DNA of 64,000 bases. It comes from Methanosarcina vacuolata Z-761. Its GTDB lineage: Archaea; Halobacteriota; Methanosarcinia; Methanosarcinales; Methanosarcinaceae. The notes under the pieces were generated by a model that was not told where the DNA came from, did no database searches, and was given only the letters and a program-made list of their open reading frames with translations. Below are positions 6,541 through 18,022 of this stretch, one piece after another. Positions within the stretch are counted from its first letter, which is position 1; each line of letters opens with the position of its first letter. The DNA lies in assembly GCF_000969905.1 (NCBI RefSeq), contig NZ_CP009520.1, forward strand, positions 3,720,001-3,784,000, read 5' to 3'. The translations under genes were made by a program, and so were the position numbers.

Positions 6541-6846
6541 TCAGACTTTTTTGCTAAAAACTTTTCCTAACCCTAAACTGATTACCAGCACTGCAAGTGT
6601 TCCAACAGCTATTGCTACTACTTCCCCACTCTTTCCCAGGCCTTCGATGGAATAGTCAGACATCGGAGAACTTACTGCAGGTTCAGTCTCTTCAATTTGG
6701 GACATCTTCGACTCTTCAACTACCCCCCCAGCAGCACTTTCAAGCCCGTCAGGGTCGGAGGATGCGAGGAAAGGAGCTAGAACTGCAAGCAAAAGTGCAA
6801 TCACAATTCCGGCATAAAATAATTTCATGTTTGCTTTTCCGCTCAT
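6541..6846 (-). CDS. cbiN: CbiN-like PDGLE-domain subunit of an ECF metal transporter
   Basis: This 101-residue membrane protein has an N-terminal transmembrane helix followed by the signature SSDPDGLES, an acidic extracytoplasmic loop, and a second helix near the C-terminus (VVAIAVGTLAVLVISLGLG). That is the layout of CbiN/NikN, the small subunit that joins CbiM in cobalt or nickel uptake by energy-coupling-factor transporters. Its start overlaps the cbiM stop by four bases (ATGA), so the two are translationally coupled. The ATP-binding and T subunits (cbiO, cbiQ) lie 5 kb away at 12380-14203. Confidence 0.88.
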   Translation of the reverse strand: MSGKANMKLFYAGIVIALLLAVLAPFLASSDPDGLESAAGGVVEESKMSQIEETEPAVSSPMSDYSIEGLGKSGEVVAIAVGTLAVLVISLGLGKVFSKKV

Positions 6847-7508
6847 GCATGAGCCTCCTTTTTATGTTTATCTGGTCTGGCAGTGAAATTATCCTCAAGG
6901 AGATCAGGACGGGATTTTGCAATCGCTGTGATTACAACTGAGGTGATCAGTCCTTCGCCTATAAAACCAATTATCAAGTGATATGTTCCCATTGCAATTA
7001 GACCTGGGACAAGGGGGAAGGTGCCTGCAATCCACATTTGGATCGCGCAAACTATTGCCGAAATAAATAGTCCGAGCCAGGCGCCTCCGAAGGCTGCAAT
7101 GCTTGTACCTACCCTACTTCGAAGGGCAACATATGTATAATATCCAACAAATCCGGAAATGACACCCATATTCAGAATATTTGCTCCCATTGTAGTGACT
7201 CCCCCGTCCCCGAAGGCGAACCCCTGCACAAGCAGGACTAGAGTAAGCACAAGGACCCCAGCCCAGGGGCTTCCGAACACGATGGCAACAAGGACTGCTC
7301 CTACCATATGCCCACTTGTTCCCATCCCTATGGGAATATTCATGGCCTGGATTGCAAAAATTCCTGCCGCAAGAGCCGCAAGAATCGGTACTTTCATCTC
7401 ATCAAGCTCGTTTTTTGCCCATTTCATTGACATTATAATAAACGGAAGGGCAATAACCCAGTAAATTACTGCCTGGCTAAGCGGTATGAATGAATCAGGT
7501 ATGTGCAT
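6843..7508 (-). CDS. cbiM: CbiM substrate-binding subunit of an ECF Co/Ni transporter
   Basis: CbiM binds Co2+ or Ni2+ and is the S component of the transporter. The 221-residue protein begins MHIPDSFIP; in this family the N-terminal amino group and His2 are metal ligands, which argues for this ATG. Six or so membrane helices follow, with the conserved PIGMGTSGHMVGA and FGDGGVTTMGANILNMG, both carrying conserved metal-site residues. GAGGAAAGTG is the ribosome site. The C-terminal tail after the last helix is charged. A leader of about 270 bases separates it from a TATA box lying between two GTATTAC boxes (7779-7823). Sequence alone cannot separate cobalt from nickel. Confidence 0.93.
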   Translation of the reverse strand: MHIPDSFIPLSQAVIYWVIALPFIIMSMKWAKNELDEMKVPILAALAAGIFAIQAMNIPIGMGTSGHMVGAVLVAIVFGSPWAGVLVLTLVLLVQGFAFGDGGVTTMGANILNMGVISGFVGYYTYVALRSRVGTSIAAFGGAWLGLFISAIVCAIQMWIAGTFPLVPGLIAMGTYHLIIGFIGEGLITSVVITAIAKSRPDLLEDNFTARPDKHKKEAHA

Positions 7509-7778
7509 TTCACTTTCCTCTTTTACCCCTATCTCTTATTTAGCATGAAAATGCTGCATCTGCAAGCACTTTCACTGGTTGTCCATGTTATTCAAATAAT
7601 ATTATGTTCGCTGCCTGTAAATCCAAACAAAAGTTCTTTAGGTTCAGAAATATTCCTAAAGAAAAGAATTGAAAACTATTCTTAACATAAAGCCTGAAAA
7701 TTCTTTTTCAGGAATAATCTTAGCATTTTTGAGTTTCTTATACTGTTTTCAGTGACTGTTTTCGAAGAACACTTCTGA

Positions 7779-7823
7779 TAATACCACATTAATCAGTATT
7801 ACATATATACGTTTTGGTATTAC
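7779..7823 (-). promoter_or_regulatory. Candidate operator/promoter of cbiM-cbiN (GTATTAC boxes)
   Basis: Three copies of one heptamer cluster here: TAATAC (7779-7784), GTATTAC (7796-7802) and GTATTAC (7817-7823). The first two form an inverted repeat with an 11-base spacer. The second and third are direct repeats with 14 bases between, and those 14 bases contain the minus-strand TATA box ACGTATATAT. A repressor bound here would cover the promoter. The same heptamer occurs upstream of cbiO-cbiQ. A metal regulator such as NikR is possible, but no regulator gene is in the window. Confidence 0.45.
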
Positions 7824-8463
7824 TTTTTTTGACAATTTTTTTATTGAAACCTTCTCATGTATCTCTCTTTTTATTTTTTAGTCGAATAAAGTAGCCTGGT
7901 ATATTCGATTAAGTCGCACATCGATTCATATTAATTTTTTGACTTTGTCTCCTACTCTGTTTTGACCTCCTAACCTGTTTTGAAACTTAACGAAAAAAAG
8001 AACGGGACATCTTTGTTCAAAAATATGAAGTATGAAGAATGAATTTATCGAAAAGGCACAAAGAAATGAAAGTACTTGAAAGAACTTTCATGCTAAAATA
8101 ACGTTCTGGTTTCGTAAGAATATTATTAGAAAAGTTAGCAATACGTAATAGGAAATGTACCAAAAATCTTAAATATCAACTGGTAATATCGATTAATGGT
8201 CTATGGCGAACAGACACAAAATAAAATACCTCCGAAATCGCCTAAGTAATCTGAACTCCTTTTTGCCCTGCCTGTGGTAGCAAAGCAGGCAGGAACTGGA
8301 TGAAACGTTTTAGAACTCCTGGTTAAACTAATGATTTTCATAGCGCCATTTATTATTTCACTCATATTTTTCTTCCGTTCCTTCATTTTTCGTTCTGATA
8401 TCTTTCCAGTCCTTGATGTTCAAGATTTTCAAGGGAATTATTCAACTTATCTCACCCTTAGCT
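7824..8463. other. Non-coding stretch
   Basis: I see no convincing gene here. The one notable structure is the inverted repeat CCTGCCTG/CAGGCAGG at 8267-8293. It follows the HExxH gene stop and may end its transcript. Confidence 0.4.
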
Positions 8464-9597
8464 CTAGTTATCGTCAATTCTGTCATACAGTTTTTCCAGA
8501 TCCATTTGCAACCTGTTAATTTCCTTTTTCCAGATTTTTTTATTAAATTCCATACAGAGACCCATTTTCAAAGCTGCCAGTTTCACATAATTCTGAGAAA
8601 TTTTTCTGTTGCTGCAGGGAAGGCCGAAAGCCAGATCGGTTTTTTTGATGCTATATTTTTCGTGGATTAGAAACTCGTAAAGCTCAGTAACCAGGTCTGG
8701 TTTTTCTTCAGACTGTTTGGAAAAATCCGGGCAAAGATCAACCAGATTCCGCAGGTGGGACTGGACGCCACAACATTCAGGGCACAATTGCTTTGAATTT
8801 GCAAACTTAAGCAGCTCTTTGAATTCAAGAAAAATATTCGTCTGCTCGAAACCTGAGGGTAGAGTTTTTCCGAGGAAGATAAGGATATGGATGCATTCAT
8901 GAAAGAGGATTTTTGCTATCAGGAATTCAATTCTATCCCGAAGGTTCCATAATTTTTCGACCAATTTTCGTTCCCACAACTCATATGGATTTATCAGGAC
9001 AAGGGATCTGTAGATTATTTTCTTGTCTTCTTTAGAAATGATTTTTTTAGGCTCGAAGGCTAACCCCGGCATCATTCCAACAAATTGCACTCGGACCGCT
9101 AGATCCCAGCAGTATTTCCATTCCCCTAAACGCGCACATTTTACCCGATAGTATTTTCCGTCAAATTTGACTCTTTCAATTAGCCGGTACAGCTCCTCAT
9201 TTTGTTTTTTGATAAGGGTTTTTATTACAGTTTCCCTGTAAATGTTCAGGTCGAGATAGAAAAGCCCTGGAGATAAAAACGAACAATCAGGAGCAGGATT
9301 AGAAACAGGATAAGTAAAAGGATTAGAAACAGGATAAGTAAAAGGATTAGAAACAGGATAAGTAAAAGGATTAGAAACAGGATAAGTAAAAGGATTAGAA
9401 ACAGGATAAGTAAAAGGATTAGAAACAGGATAAGTAAAAGGAGAGAAGTATAAGTCAACAGGAGAGGCTGGTGAAGAGGCAAGGAATAACTTGTCCTTCA
9501 CTCTATGTAACGGCAAGCTATTTTTTTCCTTTGGCAAAACTTTCTTTGTTCTTATTCCCTGCACCGCAAATCTACCCCTCTTGAACCCATTACCCAC
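8464..9597 (-). CDS. Putative zinc-dependent protein with HExxH motif and an eight-residue repeat
   Basis: I do not recognise a named family. The frame encodes up to 377 residues. Residues 53-100 are six copies of PFTYPVSN, produced by a 24-bp DNA repeat. The C-terminal two thirds are globular and contain LFHECIHIL (His233, Glu234, His237), the HExxH signature of zinc metallopeptidases. A Cys cluster (LCPECCG with later Cys residues) that could bind a second zinc follows. The start is uncertain because the low-complexity N-terminus may not be translated; the conserved-looking part begins near residue 112. It lies inside the split metal-transport locus, between cbiM and the nicotianamine synthase-like genes, but on the opposite strand to the latter. 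Confidence 0.6.
   Translation of the reverse strand: MGNGFKRGRFAVQGIRTKKVLPKEKNSLPLHRVKDKLFLASSPASPVDLYFSPFTYPVSNPFTYPVSNPFTYPVSNPFTYPVSNPFTYPVSNPFTYPVSNPAPDCSFLSPGLFYLDLNIYRETVIKTLIKKQNEELYRLIERVKFDGKYYRVKCARLGEWKYCWDLAVRVQFVGMMPGLAFEPKKIISKEDKKIIYRSLVLINPYELWERKLVEKLWNLRDRIEFLIAKILFHECIHILIFLGKTLPSGFEQTNIFLEFKELLKFANSKQLCPECCGVQSHLRNLVDLCPDFSKQSEEKPDLVTELYEFLIHEKYSIKKTDLAFGLPCSNRKISQNYVKLAALKMGLCMEFNKKIWKKEINRLQMDLEKLYDRIDDN
9294..9440. repeat. 24-bp tandem repeat inside the HExxH gene
   Basis: The unit GGATTAGAAACAGGATAAGTAAAA is repeated six times with almost no change. It is in phase with the minus-strand frame (encoding PFTYPVSN), so repeat number can vary without a frameshift. Confidence 0.9.
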
Positions 9598-10442
9598 AAT
9601 AAGAGGTTATTAGTGTTACTAAAATTTATTTTCGTATTATTAAATAGTAAAACATCCTAACCAATAAATACTTTATTCTACAAAATTGAAATATAGTAAC
9701 AATACCACAGAGGATATGAAGAAACTCATATTTCCTTAGAGCTTTTAGAACCCTCTTAACTCTAAAAACAGAGAAGCCTAAAGTTTTTAATTTTCAAAAC
9801 AACCTTCTGCAGATTTATTAGACCCAAATCTACTGGAATATCTGTGTTCTTTAAAATAACTTTTTTAACTTACTGCATCATTAAATTTCATTAGGGTATT
9901 ATTTCTATAGACAAATTTATTAACTTTGCATACAGATTAGTACCAATAGGAAATAATTTATTTTAAGAAATCTATTAAAAGTATAATCCATGAGTTAAGA
10001 AAATCCTGTCTGTTCAGGAAAGGAGTAAAATATGTCTGAGAAAGTTGCAAGAGCAAATGTTATTAGGTTAAAAAATACGCACATAAAATGCCTGAAAATT
10101 AGACTTCGGAAGTCAAAACCGTTTATTGCAAAGAATGAAACTGAAGGATACAACAACCAATAAGCTAAATCTAGAAATTTCCGAACCTGATTAAGTTTAA
10201 CATAAAATATACAACGCTGCCGAAAAAGTTCTAAAACTCTCTTTTTTGAAATTTGAAGAGGATACCTAAATTCCCCTAAAATGCCGCAACAATTTTATTT
10301 TCCCGCTGTTAACAAATATTATTTTTTTGTTTTCGTATGGTTTAAATGATTTTTACTAAGCCATCTTACGTTTTTTGTCTTATTTTTTACTTAATGCAAT
10401 GAATTTTTTTAATATACTTACTTTTTTAAGATTGTAGATAAG
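9598..10442. other. AT-rich region upstream of the nas pair
   Basis: About 850 bases of very AT-rich DNA. Apart from the possible 43-codon gene at 10032-10163, I see no gene, RNA helix or extended repeat. Confidence 0.5.
10032..10163 (+). CDS. Possible small basic protein (43 residues)
   Basis: An ATG preceded by GGAAAGGAGTAAAAT, a strong ribosome site at ideal spacing, opens a 43-codon frame. It encodes a very basic peptide (MSEKVARANVIRLKNTHIK then CLKIRLRKSKPF). No family is recognised. The ribosome site is the only positive evidence; the frame could be the start of a decayed gene. Confidence 0.35.
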   Translation: MSEKVARANVIRLKNTHIKCLKIRLRKSKPFIAKNETEGYNNQ

Positions 10443-10530
10443 TTTATATATGTTCAACAAAAATTAATCATATATAAAATATATTTTTATTAATATATTA
10501 TTAATTAATAACACGGAGTAGTGTGATCTC
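10443..10530 (+). promoter_or_regulatory. Promoter and leader of the nas-like operon
   Basis: TTTATATA at 10443-10450 and a second AT-rich box near 10470 are the likely TATA elements. GGAG at 10515-10518 is the ribosome site, about a dozen bases before the ATG. No GTATTAC box like those before the cbi operons is seen in this leader. Confidence 0.45.
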
Positions 10531-11403
10531 ATGAACAGCTTACTAAGTGCTGAGGGCAACAGTTTACTGCCCATTTTTCAAGACTATGAGCTGCAATTAT
10601 ATGACATCAGGTCCCATATCTTACATTTTTACAACAATATTAAAGATCGTGATTTAAGTATAATTGCAGAATCAAATATGGCGGAACTTTATGAGATATT
10701 TTCCGAGCTTGATGAGCTTGGGCATCTGGATGTTTCTGAAGATCTCTGTCAGGCCTTACTTAGAGATCCGGTGATCCGTTCCGTTCTTCCTGCAATTTAC
10801 ACCAGTTATACTCATTTTTTTAGTTTGCATGAGACTCAGCTAGCAAAAAATATTCTGGCTTACAAGGAACCCTGGAAAATACTGGAATCTTTTCCTCTAT
10901 ATCCCAGATACGAAAAAATGATTAAAACTCAAGTTCGGGCATCCCCTGGAATTGAAGTGCTGGCTTTCATAGGCTGCGGTCCTCTTCCTGTTACTCTACT
11001 TATTTTCAGTAAATTATATGGCATCCGTTGCATTGGAGTAGATCAGGACCCTGAAGCCGTGGATCTGGCAAAAAGCTGTATAAAGCACTTTGGGCTTGAA
11101 AAGGAAATCACTATTCTTGAGGGAGACGAAACCGTACTTTCAAAAATGGAATGGGACTCTGTGCTTATAGCAGGACTTGCCGAACCCAAACAGCGTATCT
11201 TTGAAAACTTACATACGATGATAAAAAATCGAAAATCGAGTTCCAAAAAACCAATTTCAGTGTGTTATCGCAATTATAGCGGCATAAGACAATTGCTATA
11301 CTGGCCAGTCCAGCCGGAACAGATTAAAGGTTTCAGAAAAATAAACGAAATCTATCCCGCTGGAAAAGTAAACAATACCCTGGTTTTCATGGAGTGTGAA
11401 TAA
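10531..11403 (+). CDS. Nicotianamine synthase-like protein 1
   Basis: The 290-residue product matches the nicotianamine synthase family in order of motifs: a helical N-terminal domain, FPLYPRY (121-127), the Rossmann segment VLAFIGCGPLPVTLL, GVDQDPEAVDLA, and the C-terminal VNNTLVF that corresponds to the family NSVV ending. Members condense aminocarboxypropyl groups of S-adenosylmethionine into metal-chelating opines such as nicotianamine. Glu101 and Tyr127 are 26 residues apart, the spacing I recall for the catalytic Glu81/Tyr107 pair of the Methanothermobacter enzyme. A glutamate kept in many homologues after the YPxY motif is Gln134 here. It overlaps the next gene and lies between the two cbi operons, pointing to a metallophore role. 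Confidence 0.85.
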   Translation: MNSLLSAEGNSLLPIFQDYELQLYDIRSHILHFYNNIKDRDLSIIAESNMAELYEIFSELDELGHLDVSEDLCQALLRDPVIRSVLPAIYTSYTHFFSLHETQLAKNILAYKEPWKILESFPLYPRYEKMIKTQVRASPGIEVLAFIGCGPLPVTLLIFSKLYGIRCIGVDQDPEAVDLAKSCIKHFGLEKEITILEGDETVLSKMEWDSVLIAGLAEPKQRIFENLHTMIKNRKSSSKKPISVCYRNYSGIRQLLYWPVQPEQIKGFRKINEIYPAGKVNNTLVFMECE

Positions 11404-12217
11404 CATTCAAAAAATAGATGTTAAGCCCCTAATTGCCGAATTTCGCCAGATCTATACCCAGATAAAAGATCTTAAAGAAACTGATATCCTGGATAATTCC
11501 TCTCCTGAACTGTATGCTGTGTTTAAAAGGCTGGATGAACTGGTATCTCTGGATATAGATGAACAGTCTATTGAGGTACTCTTTGAAAGCCCGGATTTTA
11601 ATATTCTGATTGTTGAGATTTCTCGCTTTCGGTTTTTATACAATTTGAAACTTGAAATCGAAAAAGCAAAAAGTCTTCTTGAAAGCTCGAATCCGTGGCA
11701 AACTCTCCAGAATTTTACATTTTATCCGAACTACCTGCAGCTTGCCAGAACCGAATATACAGGTTCAGGTCTTAAACCAAAGGATTGTGTTCTTTTTCTT
11801 GGAAGCGGCCCTCTACCTCTGAGTCTAATAATGCTCTGTCGCGAACACGGTCTTTTCGGAATCGGAATTGAACAGGATGGAAAAAGGGCAAGCCTCTCCA
11901 GGGAGGTAATTGATTGTCTCGGTCTTTCCGAAAGTATTGAGATAATCGAAGGAAACCATTTCATCCTGCCCCTTAAAACCAGATGTGACCTTTACATGGT
12001 TGCTGCCCAGGCTGAACCCAAAGAAGAGATATTCGAGCACCTTGCAAAAGTCCTTCCCAAAGGAAGTAAAGTTTCCTACCGCCTTTATGAAAAGGGCCTT
12101 CGGAGAATTCTGGACAGTAATTTCCTCTTTAAACTGCCTTCAGGATTTGAAGAATATCTCAGGGTTCAGCCGGAACCTCCAGTTAATAATACGGTTGTAT
12201 TTTTGAAAAAGAGATAA
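11396..12217 (+). CDS. Nicotianamine synthase-like protein 2
   Basis: This 273-residue paralogue of the preceding gene starts at a GTG that overlaps its stop by eight bases, so the two are surely cotranslated. The same landmarks are present: FTFYPNY (107-113), ARTE, VLFLGSGPLPLSLIML, GIGIEQDGKRASL and VNNTVVFLKKR at the end. Glu87 and Tyr113 keep the 26-residue spacing of the putative catalytic pair, and the GSGPLP loop is closer to the family consensus than GCGPLP in copy 1. Two adjacent copies suggest a heterodimer or two enzymes with different acceptors. The substrate (glutamate, histidine or another amino acid) cannot be read from the sequence. Confidence 0.85.
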   Translation: MNNIQKIDVKPLIAEFRQIYTQIKDLKETDILDNSSPELYAVFKRLDELVSLDIDEQSIEVLFESPDFNILIVEISRFRFLYNLKLEIEKAKSLLESSNPWQTLQNFTFYPNYLQLARTEYTGSGLKPKDCVLFLGSGPLPLSLIMLCREHGLFGIGIEQDGKRASLSREVIDCLGLSESIEIIEGNHFILPLKTRCDLYMVAAQAEPKEEIFEHLAKVLPKGSKVSYRLYEKGLRRILDSNFLFKLPSGFEEYLRVQPEPPVNNTVVFLKKR

Positions 12218-12263
12218 AATCTTCTGGCTGTAGGAAGCGGTTTTCAAAATTTTCTATACCAAC

Positions 12264-12345
12264 CAATTCTCAGAAACAATCAGTTCTCAGAAATAGTCAG
12301 TTCTCAGAAATAGTCAGTTCTCAGAAATAGTCAGTTCTCAGAAAA
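12264..12345. repeat. 17-bp tandem repeat between nas and cbiQ
   Basis: Five copies of CAGTTCTCAGAAATAGT fill the gap between the convergent nas-like and cbiQ genes. Confidence 0.85.
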
Positions 12346-12379
12346 GCTAAGGGAGTAGTGGAAGCAGTGGAAGCTCCTT

Positions 12380-13186
12380 TCAGACATAAAGATGTGTATA
12401 TAATATGCAACCTGCACTCAGGAGCAAAAAGAAGATGTCCTGAGCTCTGATTTTTGTCCTATAATAAGCCTTTTCATGACCACTTCCGTAACCTCTGCAA
12501 AGCATACTTATATAGGTCCTTTCTCCCTGCTCGTAGGAGCGTATGAAAATAGAACTTATGCTGTTTCCTACCTGCTCGATGACCCATTTTCTTGGCACAT
12601 CTTTGTTCCATATATCAAAAAGCCTTGTTTGCTGTGCGGTCCTTATCCTTTTAAGAACGGCCCAAAACAGGAAAAGATAGCGTATCATCATGCTCAAAAG
12701 CAGAGTAAACTCTCTTGGAATGCCTACCCTGTCTGCAGCTGCAACCATATCTCTCAGCCGCGTAGTAGAAGAAAACAGGATAATAGCTGTTATGCAGACC
12801 AGAAATTTTGCAAGCAGGGTGATTCCAAAGTCAAGTCCTTCATAAGTTATACTGAGCCCGAAAGGCAGGTCAAGAGGGTATAGAGTATAATTTTCTATAA
12901 AGGAAGGTCTAAAGAATGGCTGGATAAGGGCTATTGTGAGTCCGAATGGTAAAATTGCAAGAATACGAAGGAAAAAGTATCTTAAGTCGAGCCCTGCAGC
13001 AAGCACCAGAAGCAGCAAATAAACCTCGATGGCAAAAAGGCGGACCATATTTTTTTCGTGAATCCGGGGCAGGCTAACTGCATAAATGATTATTGCAAAT
13101 GTAAAAAGCAGCTTTATCCGGGGATCAAGCCTGTGTACTGGACTGTCTTTATATGATTCGCGTTCAATATCCGTGAGCGTTACCAT
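12380..13186 (-). CDS. cbiQ: CbiQ, T component of an ECF metal transporter
   Basis: This is the 268-residue transmembrane scaffold that joins the ATPases to CbiM. The start MVTLTDIERESYKDSPVHRLDPRIKLLFTF is typical of CbiQ. Five or so helices follow, and the cytoplasmic coupling-helix motif appears twice as an arginine-rich stretch (AADRVGIPREFTLLLSMMIRY and CRGYGSGHEK). The gene follows cbiO by 33 bases and the two form one transcription unit. It converges with the nas-like pair. Confidence 0.93.
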   Translation of the reverse strand: MVTLTDIERESYKDSPVHRLDPRIKLLFTFAIIIYAVSLPRIHEKNMVRLFAIEVYLLLLVLAAGLDLRYFFLRILAILPFGLTIALIQPFFRPSFIENYTLYPLDLPFGLSITYEGLDFGITLLAKFLVCITAIILFSSTTRLRDMVAAADRVGIPREFTLLLSMMIRYLFLFWAVLKRIRTAQQTRLFDIWNKDVPRKWVIEQVGNSISSIFIRSYEQGERTYISMLCRGYGSGHEKAYYRTKIRAQDIFFLLLSAGCILYTHLYV

Positions 13187-13219
13187 TAAAAATTCTCCTC
13201 TGAGGACTATTTCCGGCTT

Positions 13220-14203
13220 TCAATCAAGCCTCACATTTTGCTGTCCCGAGCTTATAAGCCGCAGTACTTCGTCTCTGGCTGCTTCGGCTGTTATCTGTAT
13301 GTTAACATTAAGTCCTTTTTGCTGGAGCATCTCGAATACTTCAGCCACTCTCGGAAGTCTGAGGTGAGCTTTCCTGAGGAGTTTGGGATCACTAAATATC
13401 TCATCCGGGCTTCCGTCAGCCTCAAGTCTTCCATGATGGAGAACAAAAACCCTTTCTGCAAAATAAGGAACCACATCCACGTCATGGGTAGAAAGGAGCA
13501 GGGTGATTCCAAGTTCCTTGTTCATCTTCATAATTAACTCAAGCACGCGAGCAGAACTGAGAGGGTCAAGGCCAGCTGTTGGCTCATCAAGGACTATAAC
13601 TTCAGGGCGCATGGCAAGGATGCCTGCAATCGCCACAAGTTTCTTCTGCCCTCCACTTAGATGATGCGGAGCCCTTTCCTCAAAACCTGTGAGTCCGACC
13701 ATATCAAGGGCTTCTTTAACTCTCATTTCCACCTCTCTTCTGGACAAACCCATATTAATCGGCCCAAAAGCAACATCTTCTTCAACACTTGGAGCAAGCA
13801 CCTGGTCGTCAGGGTCCTGGAAAACGATTCCTACGGTTTCCCTGCAGGCCCGGAGATTCTTCTTAGTCATTTTTTCCCCTTTTATCAGGATTTCCCCTGA
13901 AAGAGGCCGCAGAATTCCATTAAGGTGCTTGAACAAAGTAGATTTTCCGGCTCCATTAGCTCCAAGCACTGCAACTCTCTCCCCTTTGAACACTTTGAGA
14001 TTGATTTTATCCAGGGTATTTGAATCAAGATGAGAGTATCTATGGCAGAGGTCTCTGACTTCCAGTACAGGAACGCCATTTCTTTCGGTAAACTTGCCCG
14101 ATTTTTCGGAACCTGTTCCGGCTTTCTGGCTCATTCTGCCTGTTGTTTCTTTTGGGAAAGTTACTGTTTCTTCGGAGTTATGGGGGGAATTCGGAGTGCT
14201 CAT
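13220..14203 (-). CDS. cbiO: CbiO, ATPase of an ECF metal transporter
   Basis: The 327-residue protein is an ABC ATPase with Walker A GANGAGKST, Q-loop FQDPDDQ, signature HLSGGQKK, Walker B VIVLDEPTAGLD and switch histidine STHD. FQDPDDQVLAPSVEEDVAFGP is typical of ECF-type ATPases, which differ from importers with a binding protein. About 45 extra residues rich in Ser/Thr/Glu precede the domain; a later start is possible but no better ribosome site is evident. Only one ATPase gene is present, so a homodimer should power the CbiMNQ module. GTATTAC boxes upstream match those before cbiM. Confidence 0.93.
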   Translation of the reverse strand: MSTPNSPHNSEETVTFPKETTGRMSQKAGTGSEKSGKFTERNGVPVLEVRDLCHRYSHLDSNTLDKINLKVFKGERVAVLGANGAGKSTLFKHLNGILRPLSGEILIKGEKMTKKNLRACRETVGIVFQDPDDQVLAPSVEEDVAFGPINMGLSRREVEMRVKEALDMVGLTGFEERAPHHLSGGQKKLVAIAGILAMRPEVIVLDEPTAGLDPLSSARVLELIMKMNKELGITLLLSTHDVDVVPYFAERVFVLHHGRLEADGSPDEIFSDPKLLRKAHLRLPRVAEVFEMLQQKGLNVNIQITAEAARDEVLRLISSGQQNVRLD

Positions 14204-14263
14204 ACTGAAAACATCCTGTATGAAGATCGCGTTTACATATGAAAACTAACTTTTTTAAAAATA

Positions 14264-15778: not shown

Positions 15779-16210
15779 TCATTTTCCAAGTTTACGAACT
15801 TGGAAAATATGGGATATTGAGGCGGCCATGAAAAGAAAGTTTGTAAACAGCATCCACTTAGAACTTGGGATCCATTTTATTAACCCTGCAACTATAAGGA
15901 AACCGCTGACTGTGGCAAATATGCTCAGGCCAAGATAGAACTGGCTCCAGGGTATATCTCCTTTATTAACAGTTTCCAAGTAAATGTCAAATTCCTGGGA
16001 GGCTGGGAGAAGTTCCACAGTGTCCTGCTCTCTATTGTAGGCAACGATTCCCATATTTTCCATTTTTGGGATATGTGTCTGAAGCAGTGAAACATATATG
16101 CTTTTCCTAACACCCCTATTTGGCTCTTCGTCTTGGGATTCAATACGGGCGATCTCTTCGGACAGGGAACGTACACTCTGGTTTCCCTGAATGCGGAGGA
16201 GTTCAAGCAC
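15779..16210 (-). CDS. DUF7344-type winged-helix membrane protein, 5' end cut by an IS
   Basis: The protein has a winged-helix domain followed by two C-terminal membrane helices (FYLGLSIFATVSGFLIVAGL and WMLFTNFLFMAAS), as in DUF7344 regulators of Methanosarcina and haloarchaea. The listed start is a GTG, but the frame stays open upstream. There it encodes the characteristic first helix SDIFGVLQNDRRRLVLELLR and runs without an ATG into the inverted repeat of the IS at 16293. The native start has probably been removed by the insertion, so the gene may be broken or be expressed from the GTG. Its DNA-binding target is unknown. Confidence 0.65.
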   Translation of the reverse strand: MLELLRIQGNQSVRSLSEEIARIESQDEEPNRGVRKSIYVSLLQTHIPKMENMGIVAYNREQDTVELLPASQEFDIYLETVNKGDIPWSQFYLGLSIFATVSGFLIVAGLIKWIPSSKWMLFTNFLFMAASISHIFQVRKLGK

Positions 16211-16292: not shown

Positions 16293-18022
16293 TTAAACCT
16301 AGATTCGGCAGGTAAACATATAAGTTAATATAATTAATTTTCATATTTCTTTTCTTGATCTTCCATGGCAGATAAAAACAACAGTAGAAGAGTTGAATCC
16401 TCAATAAAACGTACAAGCTTCTTAGGTCACCTTGGTCTTATTGCTGGAGTTTTCCAAGAGCTTGAAGTTGACAAATTGATCGATGAGAAACTTCCTAAAG
16501 AACGAGATCACAAGGTTCCTCACTCCGTCTGTATCCTTGCCATGGTACTCAATGGTCTTGGTTTCATAGGGCAACGTCTGTACCTTTTTCCTGATTATTT
16601 CAGGACTATTTCTATAGGAAGACTTTTTGGAGACAGCGTCACACGAGAAGACCTGAATCAATATGCTATTGGAGAAACTCTTGACAGAATCGTAAAGTAT
16701 GGTCCTACAAAACTGTTTACTGAAATCACTCTTCACATTATGAATCGTCTACCTATTCCTGTCCATTGTTTACACGCTGACACTACAAGTGTCAGCGTTT
16801 ATGGGGATTATGAAGACGAAGAAACTGAGTATATTGATATTACTTTTGGAATACCCAAAAACGGAAGATGGGACCTCAAACAATTTGTTTTGAGCTTGAT
16901 TGTTAATCAGCATGGAATACCACTTTTCATGAACACCCATTCAGGGAATGCTTCAGACAAAAGCACAATTCTGGAAGCAATCAAGTCTCTCAAATCAGCT
17001 TTAAGACCTGAAAGCAAAGTGTACTATGTAGCTGATAGTTCTTTTTACACTGATAATAATATCAAGAACATAGGAAAGTCATTCTGGATCAGTCGTGTTC
17101 CTGCAACAATTACTGAGGCAAAGGAACTGCTAAATGCAAATCTAAACCTGAAAACGTTGAAAAGCGACGAAAGATACTCATTTTATCAAACCTTTGTGGA
17201 TTATGGTGGAGTTAAACAAAAGTGGGTTTTGTTACTCTCTCATAAAATGAAAGAAAAAAAAGAGGTAACTCTCAGAAGGAAGCTTGAAAAAGAGCTTGAA
17301 AAAGCAGAAAAGTCGCTTAAAAAACTGGCAGGAGATGACTTTTTCTGTGAAGAAGATGCATTAAAAGCAGCAGAAAAATGGATTGCAGATTTCCCTTCCG
17401 TTCTTTTTGAAAAAGTAGATTTGAAAACCATTAAAAAACGCGAAGCAGGTAAAAAAGGCAGACCTTTAAAAAATGAAAAATTAAAGACATATTATAAGAT
17501 TGATGGGGTTATAAAGGTTAATGATGCTTTTGTTTTAAAAGAAATGGAAAAAATGGGACTTTTCATTCTTGCAAGTAATGATATCAGTCTTTCTCCTGAA
17601 GAGATGCTGAAGTATTACAAAGGACAGGATAAAGTAGAAAAAGGATTCAGATTTTTGAAAAGTGATGCCTTTAGCATATCGAAGGTTTATCTCAAGAATA
17701 AATCAAGAATTGAAGCGTTGACAATGATAATGGTTCTCTGCTTAATGATTTATTCTATTGCAGAATGGAAATTAAGGACAAAGTTAGAAGAAGAAAATGA
17801 AACGGTTCCAGATCAAAAAGGGAAACCAACAAAAAGACCAACAATGAGATGGATATTTTTCAAGTTTCAGGGAATTACAGAACTTATAACGCAGAAAAAA
17901 GGGAAAACAAAGTCAGAAATACTGAATATGGAAGAAATTCACTGGAAAATATTGAGTCTCATGGGAGAGAAATATGAAAATATATATCTATAGTTGCGTT
18001 AACCTGCCGAATCTAGGATTAA
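16293..18022 (+). mobile_element. IS1634-family insertion sequence
   Basis: The element is about 1730 bp and carries one transposase gene. Its ends are an inverted repeat, TTAAACCTAGATTCGGCAGGT at the left (16293-16313) and ACCTGCCGAATCTAGGATTAA at the right (18002-18022), with one mismatch in 21. No clear target duplication is visible. A 15-base match, GAGTTCAAGCACAAG, occurs on both sides (16199 and 18061), one inside the DUF7344 gene, and may record a rearrangement at insertion. Confidence 0.85.
16365..17993 (+). CDS. IS1634-family transposase
   Basis: The 542-residue enzyme is intact and fills the IS. The N-terminal domain (residues about 15-120, LGHLGLIAGVFQELEVDKLI) is the DUF4277-like DNA-binding part. 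The DDE core follows with HADTTSVSVYGD (first Asp), VADSSFYTDNN (second Asp) and YYKGQDKVEKGFRFLKSD (the YREK-like signature that contains the Glu). A lysine-rich insertion between the second Asp and the Glu is usual for the family. The frame is complete, so the copy may still be active. Confidence 0.92.
   Translation: MADKNNSRRVESSIKRTSFLGHLGLIAGVFQELEVDKLIDEKLPKERDHKVPHSVCILAMVLNGLGFIGQRLYLFPDYFRTISIGRLFGDSVTREDLNQYAIGETLDRIVKYGPTKLFTEITLHIMNRLPIPVHCLHADTTSVSVYGDYEDEETEYIDITFGIPKNGRWDLKQFVLSLIVNQHGIPLFMNTHSGNASDKSTILEAIKSLKSALRPESKVYYVADSSFYTDNNIKNIGKSFWISRVPATITEAKELLNANLNLKTLKSDERYSFYQTFVDYGGVKQKWVLLLSHKMKEKKEVTLRRKLEKELEKAEKSLKKLAGDDFFCEEDALKAAEKWIADFPSVLFEKVDLKTIKKREAGKKGRPLKNEKLKTYYKIDGVIKVNDAFVLKEMEKMGLFILASNDISLSPEEMLKYYKGQDKVEKGFRFLKSDAFSISKVYLKNKSRIEALTMIMVLCLMIYSIAEWKLRTKLEEENETVPDQKGKPTKRPTMRWIFFKFQGITELITQKKGKTKSEILNMEEIHWKILSLMGEKYENIYL

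Follow-up and report, generated by a model that had tools for sequence, protein, structure and literature searches.

The locus studied here raises a simple question: why do two overlapping genes for nicotianamine synthase (NAS)-like enzymes stand in the middle of an energy-coupling factor (ECF) metal transporter operon in Methanosarcina vacuolata Z-761? The genes, called nasA and nasB below, lie in a stretch of 64,000 nucleotides of this 4.56-Mb genome (NZ_CP009520.1, positions 3,720,001 to 3,784,000), which we call the window and whose numbering we use unless a locus or contig prefix is given. An initial annotation, made from the letters alone, had proposed that a nickel or cobalt chelator is made here and used with the transporter. 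The enzymes are real and the linkage to ECF genes is recurrent, while the cobalt-type transporter set and the opine chemistry of that proposal did not find support. On balance we think it somewhat probable that the pair makes a nicotianamine-like nickel chelator, with no opine step, which is coupled to ECF import and most likely released. The genes concerned are as follows, MtNAS being the enzyme of Methanothermobacter thermautotrophicus:

10531..11403, plus strand: nasA, NAS-family aminocarboxypropyl transferase of subfamily A, the MtNAS side of the tree

11396..12217, plus strand: nasB, NAS-family aminocarboxypropyl transferase of subfamily B

6541..6846, minus strand: nikN-like small ECF subunit (PDGLE PF13190, 66.6 bits; NCBIfam NF004934, 158 bits)

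6843..7508, minus strand: nikM/cbiM, ECF S component (PF01891, 183.9 bits; NF004902, 347.5 bits)

12380..13186, minus strand: nikQ/cbiQ, ECF T component (PF02361, 128.3 bits; TIGR02454, above cut-off)

13220..14203, minus strand: nikO/cbiO, ECF ATPase (PF00005; TIGR01166, 242 bits, above cut-off)

Both nasA and nasB encode genuine members of the NAS family. The Pfam profile PF03059, whose curated cut-off for family membership is 27.1 bits, matches NasA at 73.7 bits (E 2e-20) and NasB at 115.9 bits (E 2.7e-33), and the closest solved structure for both proteins is MtNAS (PDB 3fpe/3fpg/3o31; E 8e-40 and 1e-31). The coordinates first given for the two open reading frames, which overlap by 8 bases (11396-11403), were exact. 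The Glu-x25-Tyr pairs that the initial annotation had named as catalytic (Glu101/Tyr127 in NasA, Glu87/Tyr113 in NasB) align with Glu81/Tyr107 of MtNAS, Glu81 being the residue altered in PDB 3o31, and do not vary across the 29 A-type and 33 B-type proteins that we aligned. AtNAS1 cannot do without the corresponding residues (PMC10248798), and in MtNAS they are the proposed deprotonating pair (PMC10491745). Models made with AlphaFold from alignments of the fetched loci (pLDDT 90 for NasA and 88 for NasB) find MtNAS as their top PDB match, with Z 33.5 and rmsd 1.7 over 258 aligned residues for NasA and Z 24.4 and rmsd 2.9 over 260 for NasB; CntL comes next, and ordinary methyltransferases score far lower. 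The S-adenosylmethionine (SAM) and catalytic pockets had been named as the place where the identification might fail in models. There, both models have the NAS fold, an N-terminal helical domain and a SAM-binding Rossmann domain, over nearly their whole length, and the Glu/Tyr pair is kept. Ratios of nonsynonymous to synonymous substitution (dN/dS) against sister species are 0.10-0.17 for nasA and 0.11-0.26 for nasB, and both genes are under purifying selection.

What kind of chemistry, then, would these enzymes serve? The opine pathway supposed at first was not borne out: no opine dehydrogenase was recognised among the neighbour genes examined, the opine dehydrogenase family PF10100 has no match in the M. 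vacuolata genome (control genomes being equally silent), and NasA and NasB score only 32.7 and 33.6 bits against the CntL equivalog NF033601, for which the cut-off is 350.

The metal can be addressed through the transporter. The NAS pair is antisense to the flanking ECF genes, with nikO and nikQ on one side (14203-12380) and nikM and the small subunit on the other (7508-6541), and residues Met1, His2 and His67 of NikM/CbiM can be read directly off the translation. The locus had been described as a complete CbiMNQO module. CbiM, CbiQ and CbiO are indeed recovered by Pfam and NCBIfam, but the supposed CbiN carries the PDGLE domain and has no Pfam match to CbiN (PF02553), a true copy of which is found, together with CbiM, at a separate locus of the same genome (L114). 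NCBIfam names for all of the ECF subunits at the locus say "cobalt". We take the PDGLE small subunit to be NikN. According to Zhang et al. (2009), CbiN marks cobalt transporters, nickel ones having either NikN or the two subunits NikK and NikL, and NikN and CbiN are unrelated to each other (PMC2667541). With these assignments the PDGLE subunit leads us to read the module as NikMNQO, a predicted Ni2+ transporter; nickel is likelier than cobalt because the small subunit is of the PDGLE/NikN type and not CbiN. The NikK/NikL sets of other lineages also speak against a cobalt-type set.

Is the association with ECF genes more than chance? We collapsed duplicates, kept only loci with 6 kb or more of flank on either side, and looked for an ECF M or Q gene within 10 kb. 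Such a gene accompanies 15 of 17 loci with an A+B pair, 10 of 16 with subfamily B only, and none of the 18 loci that belong to a third NAS clade, of solo genes (NASC). This separate clade is found in most Methanosarcina, including M. vacuolata itself (C2:2644820-2645641, 1.1 Mb from the pair; locus L053:9775-10659), and provides a useful internal negative control from the same genus. Directly upstream of NASC, on the same strand, there is often a small helix-turn-helix regulator gene (cluster 7). Because most of the Methanosarcina cases share one origin, an even sample was drawn from the class of Desulfospira. NAS is present in 21 of its 241 genomes, and CbiM/NikM lies within about 10 kb of NAS in five of the nine sampled Desulfobacteria genomes that have NAS on a long contig; we estimate the chance expectation at about 1%, from one to four CbiM genes per 4-8 Mb. 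At least four transporter types are linked to NAS (the NikMNQO of the window, a CbiM2 type, archaeal NikKMLQO and bacterial NikKMLQO). Linkage to nickel/cobalt ECF genes in other genomes, on which the initial annotation had staked its reading, thus recurs.

Nor is the pair a tandem copy peculiar to one locus. A tree of 143 sequences, rooted at the midpoint, separates subfamilies A and B with an SH-aLRT of 100, and places the MtNAS-like enzymes of the Methanobacteriales in subfamily A. The A-B tandem order, once thought unusual, recurs in Methanosarcina, Methanothrix, a Methanoculleus metagenome-assembled genome, the Desulfobacterota (including the cable bacterium Electrothrix) and the Auribacterota. 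On this sequence evidence both subfamilies, A and B, are of ancient origin, and the A-B pair is a conserved two-gene module in two domains of life. In Desulfospira (L188) the order is nikK-M-L-Q-O-nasA-nasB on one strand, with about 60 bases between nikO and nasA, and in Ca. Electrothrix gigas (L196, 6777-10789) nikM-Q-O is followed on the same strand by nasA-nasB after about 6 bases, with nikO ending at 9080 and nasA starting at 9087. The fetched loci of anaerobic methanotrophic archaea (ANME-1 and ANME-2), Methanolobus and Methanococcoides hold B-type genes only, and many B-only loci adjoin NikK (DUF4198)-NikM-NikL-NikQ-NikO, often along with the methyltransferase discussed below. One ANME-1 contig (L122) has CfbA, the F430 nickelochelatase, beside NAS and above its cut-off; another ANME-1 locus (L124) has cobyric acid synthase nearby. 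In the Desulfobacterota a fold-III pyridoxal phosphate (PLP) enzyme (Ala_racemase_N plus D-ser_dehydrat) follows the pair in 12 loci of the first set. Close to the pair in Gram-negative relatives are TonB receptors (L199, L200, L220, L224 and L234), Peripla_BP_2 (L192 and L220) and FecCD (L220). Bacterial NasA proteins (L188:9086-9976, L181:7435-8319 and L190:9141-10025) have an N-terminal cysteine cluster, GCCxxC, a possible metal or regulatory site that is absent from Methanosarcina NasA.

How did the pair come to lie where it does in Methanosarcina? In eight relatives without it (L099-L103, L106, L108 and L109), cbiO-Q-M-N is unbroken and has the same nth gene at its side, as well as purH wherever the stretch extends that far. 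The NAS genes therefore split a pre-existing operon. The pair lies between cbiQ and cbiM in 10 Methanosarcina genomes, the window included (in L041 up to the contig end), and beside another, more distant CbiM/Q/O set in L035, L036 and L045. Most sister species have, ahead of nasA, a SAM methyltransferase gene of the Methyltransf_11 type; this gene or its fragments are kept without NAS in L104, L105, L107, L110 and L112, and a decayed remnant persists in the close relative L034. M. vacuolata has no orthologue elsewhere in its genome, only paralogues of at most 46% identity. Two further features upstream of nasA bear on this history:

10255..10275, strand not assigned: methyltransferase deletion scar, approximate, from flank alignments to relatives

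10443..10450, plus strand: candidate archaeal TATA box of the NAS pair, TTTATATA, read from the sequence

To the left of the scar the sequence corresponds to what lies upstream of the methyltransferase in relatives, to the right it corresponds to the spacer between methyltransferase and nasA in L037, and the two join near 10260-10270; the gene has been lost by deletion or decay in the clade of this species. The TATA candidate lies in an upstream block conserved in L034, L037, L038 and L040. A scan of upstream regions for inverted repeats returned a single recurring one, the palindrome TCATAC-N12-GTATGA (14200-14223), which spans the nikO start codon, is kept in several species and may be an operator.

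With these pieces in hand, a mechanism can be suggested. Thermonicotianamine, the product of MtNAS, is assembled from glutamate and two units derived from SAM (PMC10491745). NasA and NasB would use SAM as donor of aminocarboxypropyl groups and an amino acid as the starter that receives them, giving a nicotianamine-like chelator; A may extend the amino acid as MtNAS does and B perform a second step, or the two might share the two transfers or act as a heterodimer. The chelator would be released to bind Ni2+ where this is scarce, as in sulfidic water, and would hand it to, or act alongside, the surrounding NikM-N-Q-O importer. The methyltransferase of most sister species could modify the product, which in this species, having lost that gene, may be unmethylated. 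TonB receptors, Peripla_BP_2 and FecCD are parts of a metallophore recapture system, and by analogy their presence near the pair suggests an extracellular compound, at least in the Desulfobacterota. It is for this reason that we favour a secreted nickel chelator and regard an intracellular one as the main rival.

Several observations pull the other way. The Methanosarcina locus has neither an exporter nor a chelate-specific importer, free Ni2+ is the presumed ligand of ECF NikM, and the upstream scan found no NikR-like operator common to the nik and NAS genes. No ECF linkage was seen for the MtNAS-like genes in the fetched loci of the Methanobacteriales, and many or most of the Methanosarcina loci descend from one insertion, so that their counts are not independent. 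The distribution is patchy, several Methanosarcina species lacking the pair or having broken copies, and at L033 (6292-11578, genome G028) nasA-nasB is intact beside truncated nikM and nikQ; nikO was not found there, and that genome has four other CbiM/NikM genes. Some of this would fit a chelator that never leaves the cell and buffers ECF-imported Ni2+ or carries it to CfbA, carbon monoxide dehydrogenase (CODH), hydrogenase or Mcr. Nicotianamine acts inside the cells of plants, the archaeal loci are without an exporter, ECF importers take free metal, CfbA adjoins NAS in L122, and TonB-type recapture is not expected in archaea without an outer membrane; the TonB and Peripla_BP_2/FecCD genes beside the same pair in the Desulfobacterota argue against it, and we consider it a serious but rather doubtful option.

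A chelator for cobalt (or zinc or iron), with the ECF module as a cobalt importer, seems to us unlikely. It would agree with the NCBIfam names, the cobyric acid synthase near L124 and the cobalt demand of Methanosarcina, which is also high, and the known NAS-like bacterial metallophores chiefly serve zinc (PMC7438024), but PDGLE/NikN and NikK/NikL belong to nickel-type sets (PMC2667541) and M. vacuolata has its separate CbiM with a true CbiN. The pair might instead be a passenger, horizontally acquired or in decay, that entered between cbiQ and cbiM, was retained patchily and does little here. The patchy spread, the eight species with contiguous cbiOQMN, the intermediates with methyltransferase and no NAS, the remnant in L034, the loss of the methyltransferase here and the broken copies (L042, L043, L045 and L046) are all in keeping with that account, which we nonetheless hold very unlikely in view of the low dN/dS (0.10-0.26), the intact frames in the window's clade and the conserved promoter-like block upstream of nasA. 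Most improbable of all, in our estimation, is aminocarboxypropyl transfer for some other purpose (a cofactor, a lipid or a macromolecule), with the position among ECF genes due to chance or regulation. No product is known for A+B pairs, and the adjoining methyltransferase and PLP enzyme are compatible with many pathways; yet the ECF linkage recurs across domains and with several transporter types, the NASC clade serves as a negative control, and MtNAS yields a nicotianamine analogue (PMC10491745).

One more gene lies between nikM and nasA:

8464..9180, minus strand: HExxH protein, the conserved part of open reading frame 8464-9597, with no Pfam or NCBIfam family

Within the 5' part of the frame, 6.2 copies of a 24-bp unit are repeated perfectly in tandem (9295-9442), and the conserved protein is therefore taken to span about 8464-9180 and not the whole frame to 9597. 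The protein had been counted among the things that make the locus unusual. As a component of the system it was rejected: the family is specific to Methanosarcina and occurs at many unrelated sites in the genomes of this genus, most of which have a second paralogue of about 50% identity, and its link to NAS is inconsistent. We judge it a bystander. A 17-bp tandem repeat (12267-12344, 4.6 copies) occupies the convergent gap between nasB and nikQ, and beside the locus are a DUF7344 protein (15779-16210, minus strand) and a DUF4277/DDE transposase (16365-17993, plus strand).

Methanogens and ANME need much nickel for Mcr, CODH and hydrogenases, sulfidic settings lock nickel in sulfides, and the route of its mobilisation is an open matter (PMC10617489). 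A module coupling NAS-type synthesis to nickel ECF import would offer a concrete answer on how anaerobes scavenge nickel. We know of no earlier archaeal nickelophore pathway; this would be the first. In the literature searched, no paper contains both "nicotianamine synthase" and "Methanosarcina", genome surveys of ANME and sulfate-reducing bacteria do not mention nicotianamine, and we found no report of the ECF-NAS coupling, the A+B pair or their spread across lineages, although an earlier mention of archaeal NAS context is possible. The unusual nikMQO operon of Ca. Electrothrix gigas was pointed out in 2024 in a survey of cable-bacterial nickel genes, in which the word nicotianamine does not occur (PMC11247825). 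Metallophores made by NAS enzymes are known, and so are nickel ECF transporters; their coupling and the A+B pair are apparently new. We advance more tentatively, as possible and short of probable, the idea that a nickelophore pathway (A plus B, or B alone in ANME, with an optional methyltransferase) coupled to nickel ECF import is common to methanogens, ANME and the sulfate reducers that share their sediments, and that it yields a nicotianamine analogue that is new and not an opine, possibly exchanged within consortia.

Among known systems, the transporter half resembles NikMNQO and NikKMLQO, the window having M, a PDGLE-type N, Q and O and its relatives NikK-M-L-Q-O; the difference is the attached chelator-synthesis genes, for which we found no description. 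The cntKLM zincophore operons (staphylopine, pseudopaline and yersinopine) likewise link a NAS-family enzyme to metal import, and the sulfate-reducing relatives come closer still with their TonB/FecCD genes and racemase-fold PLP enzyme. Unlike cntKLM, however, our loci have two NAS enzymes and no opine dehydrogenase that we could see, a methyltransferase replaces CntM, and in the archaea an ECF nickel transporter stands in place of Opp/FecCD. MtNAS (PDB 3fpe/3fpf/3fpg/3fpj/3o31) is alike in family, fold and Glu/Tyr pair, with nasA on its side of the tree. It is a single gene without ECF linkage in the fetched Methanobacteriales loci, whereas the window has, besides nasA, a second enzyme, of the ancient subfamily B, and an ECF module of the nickel type.

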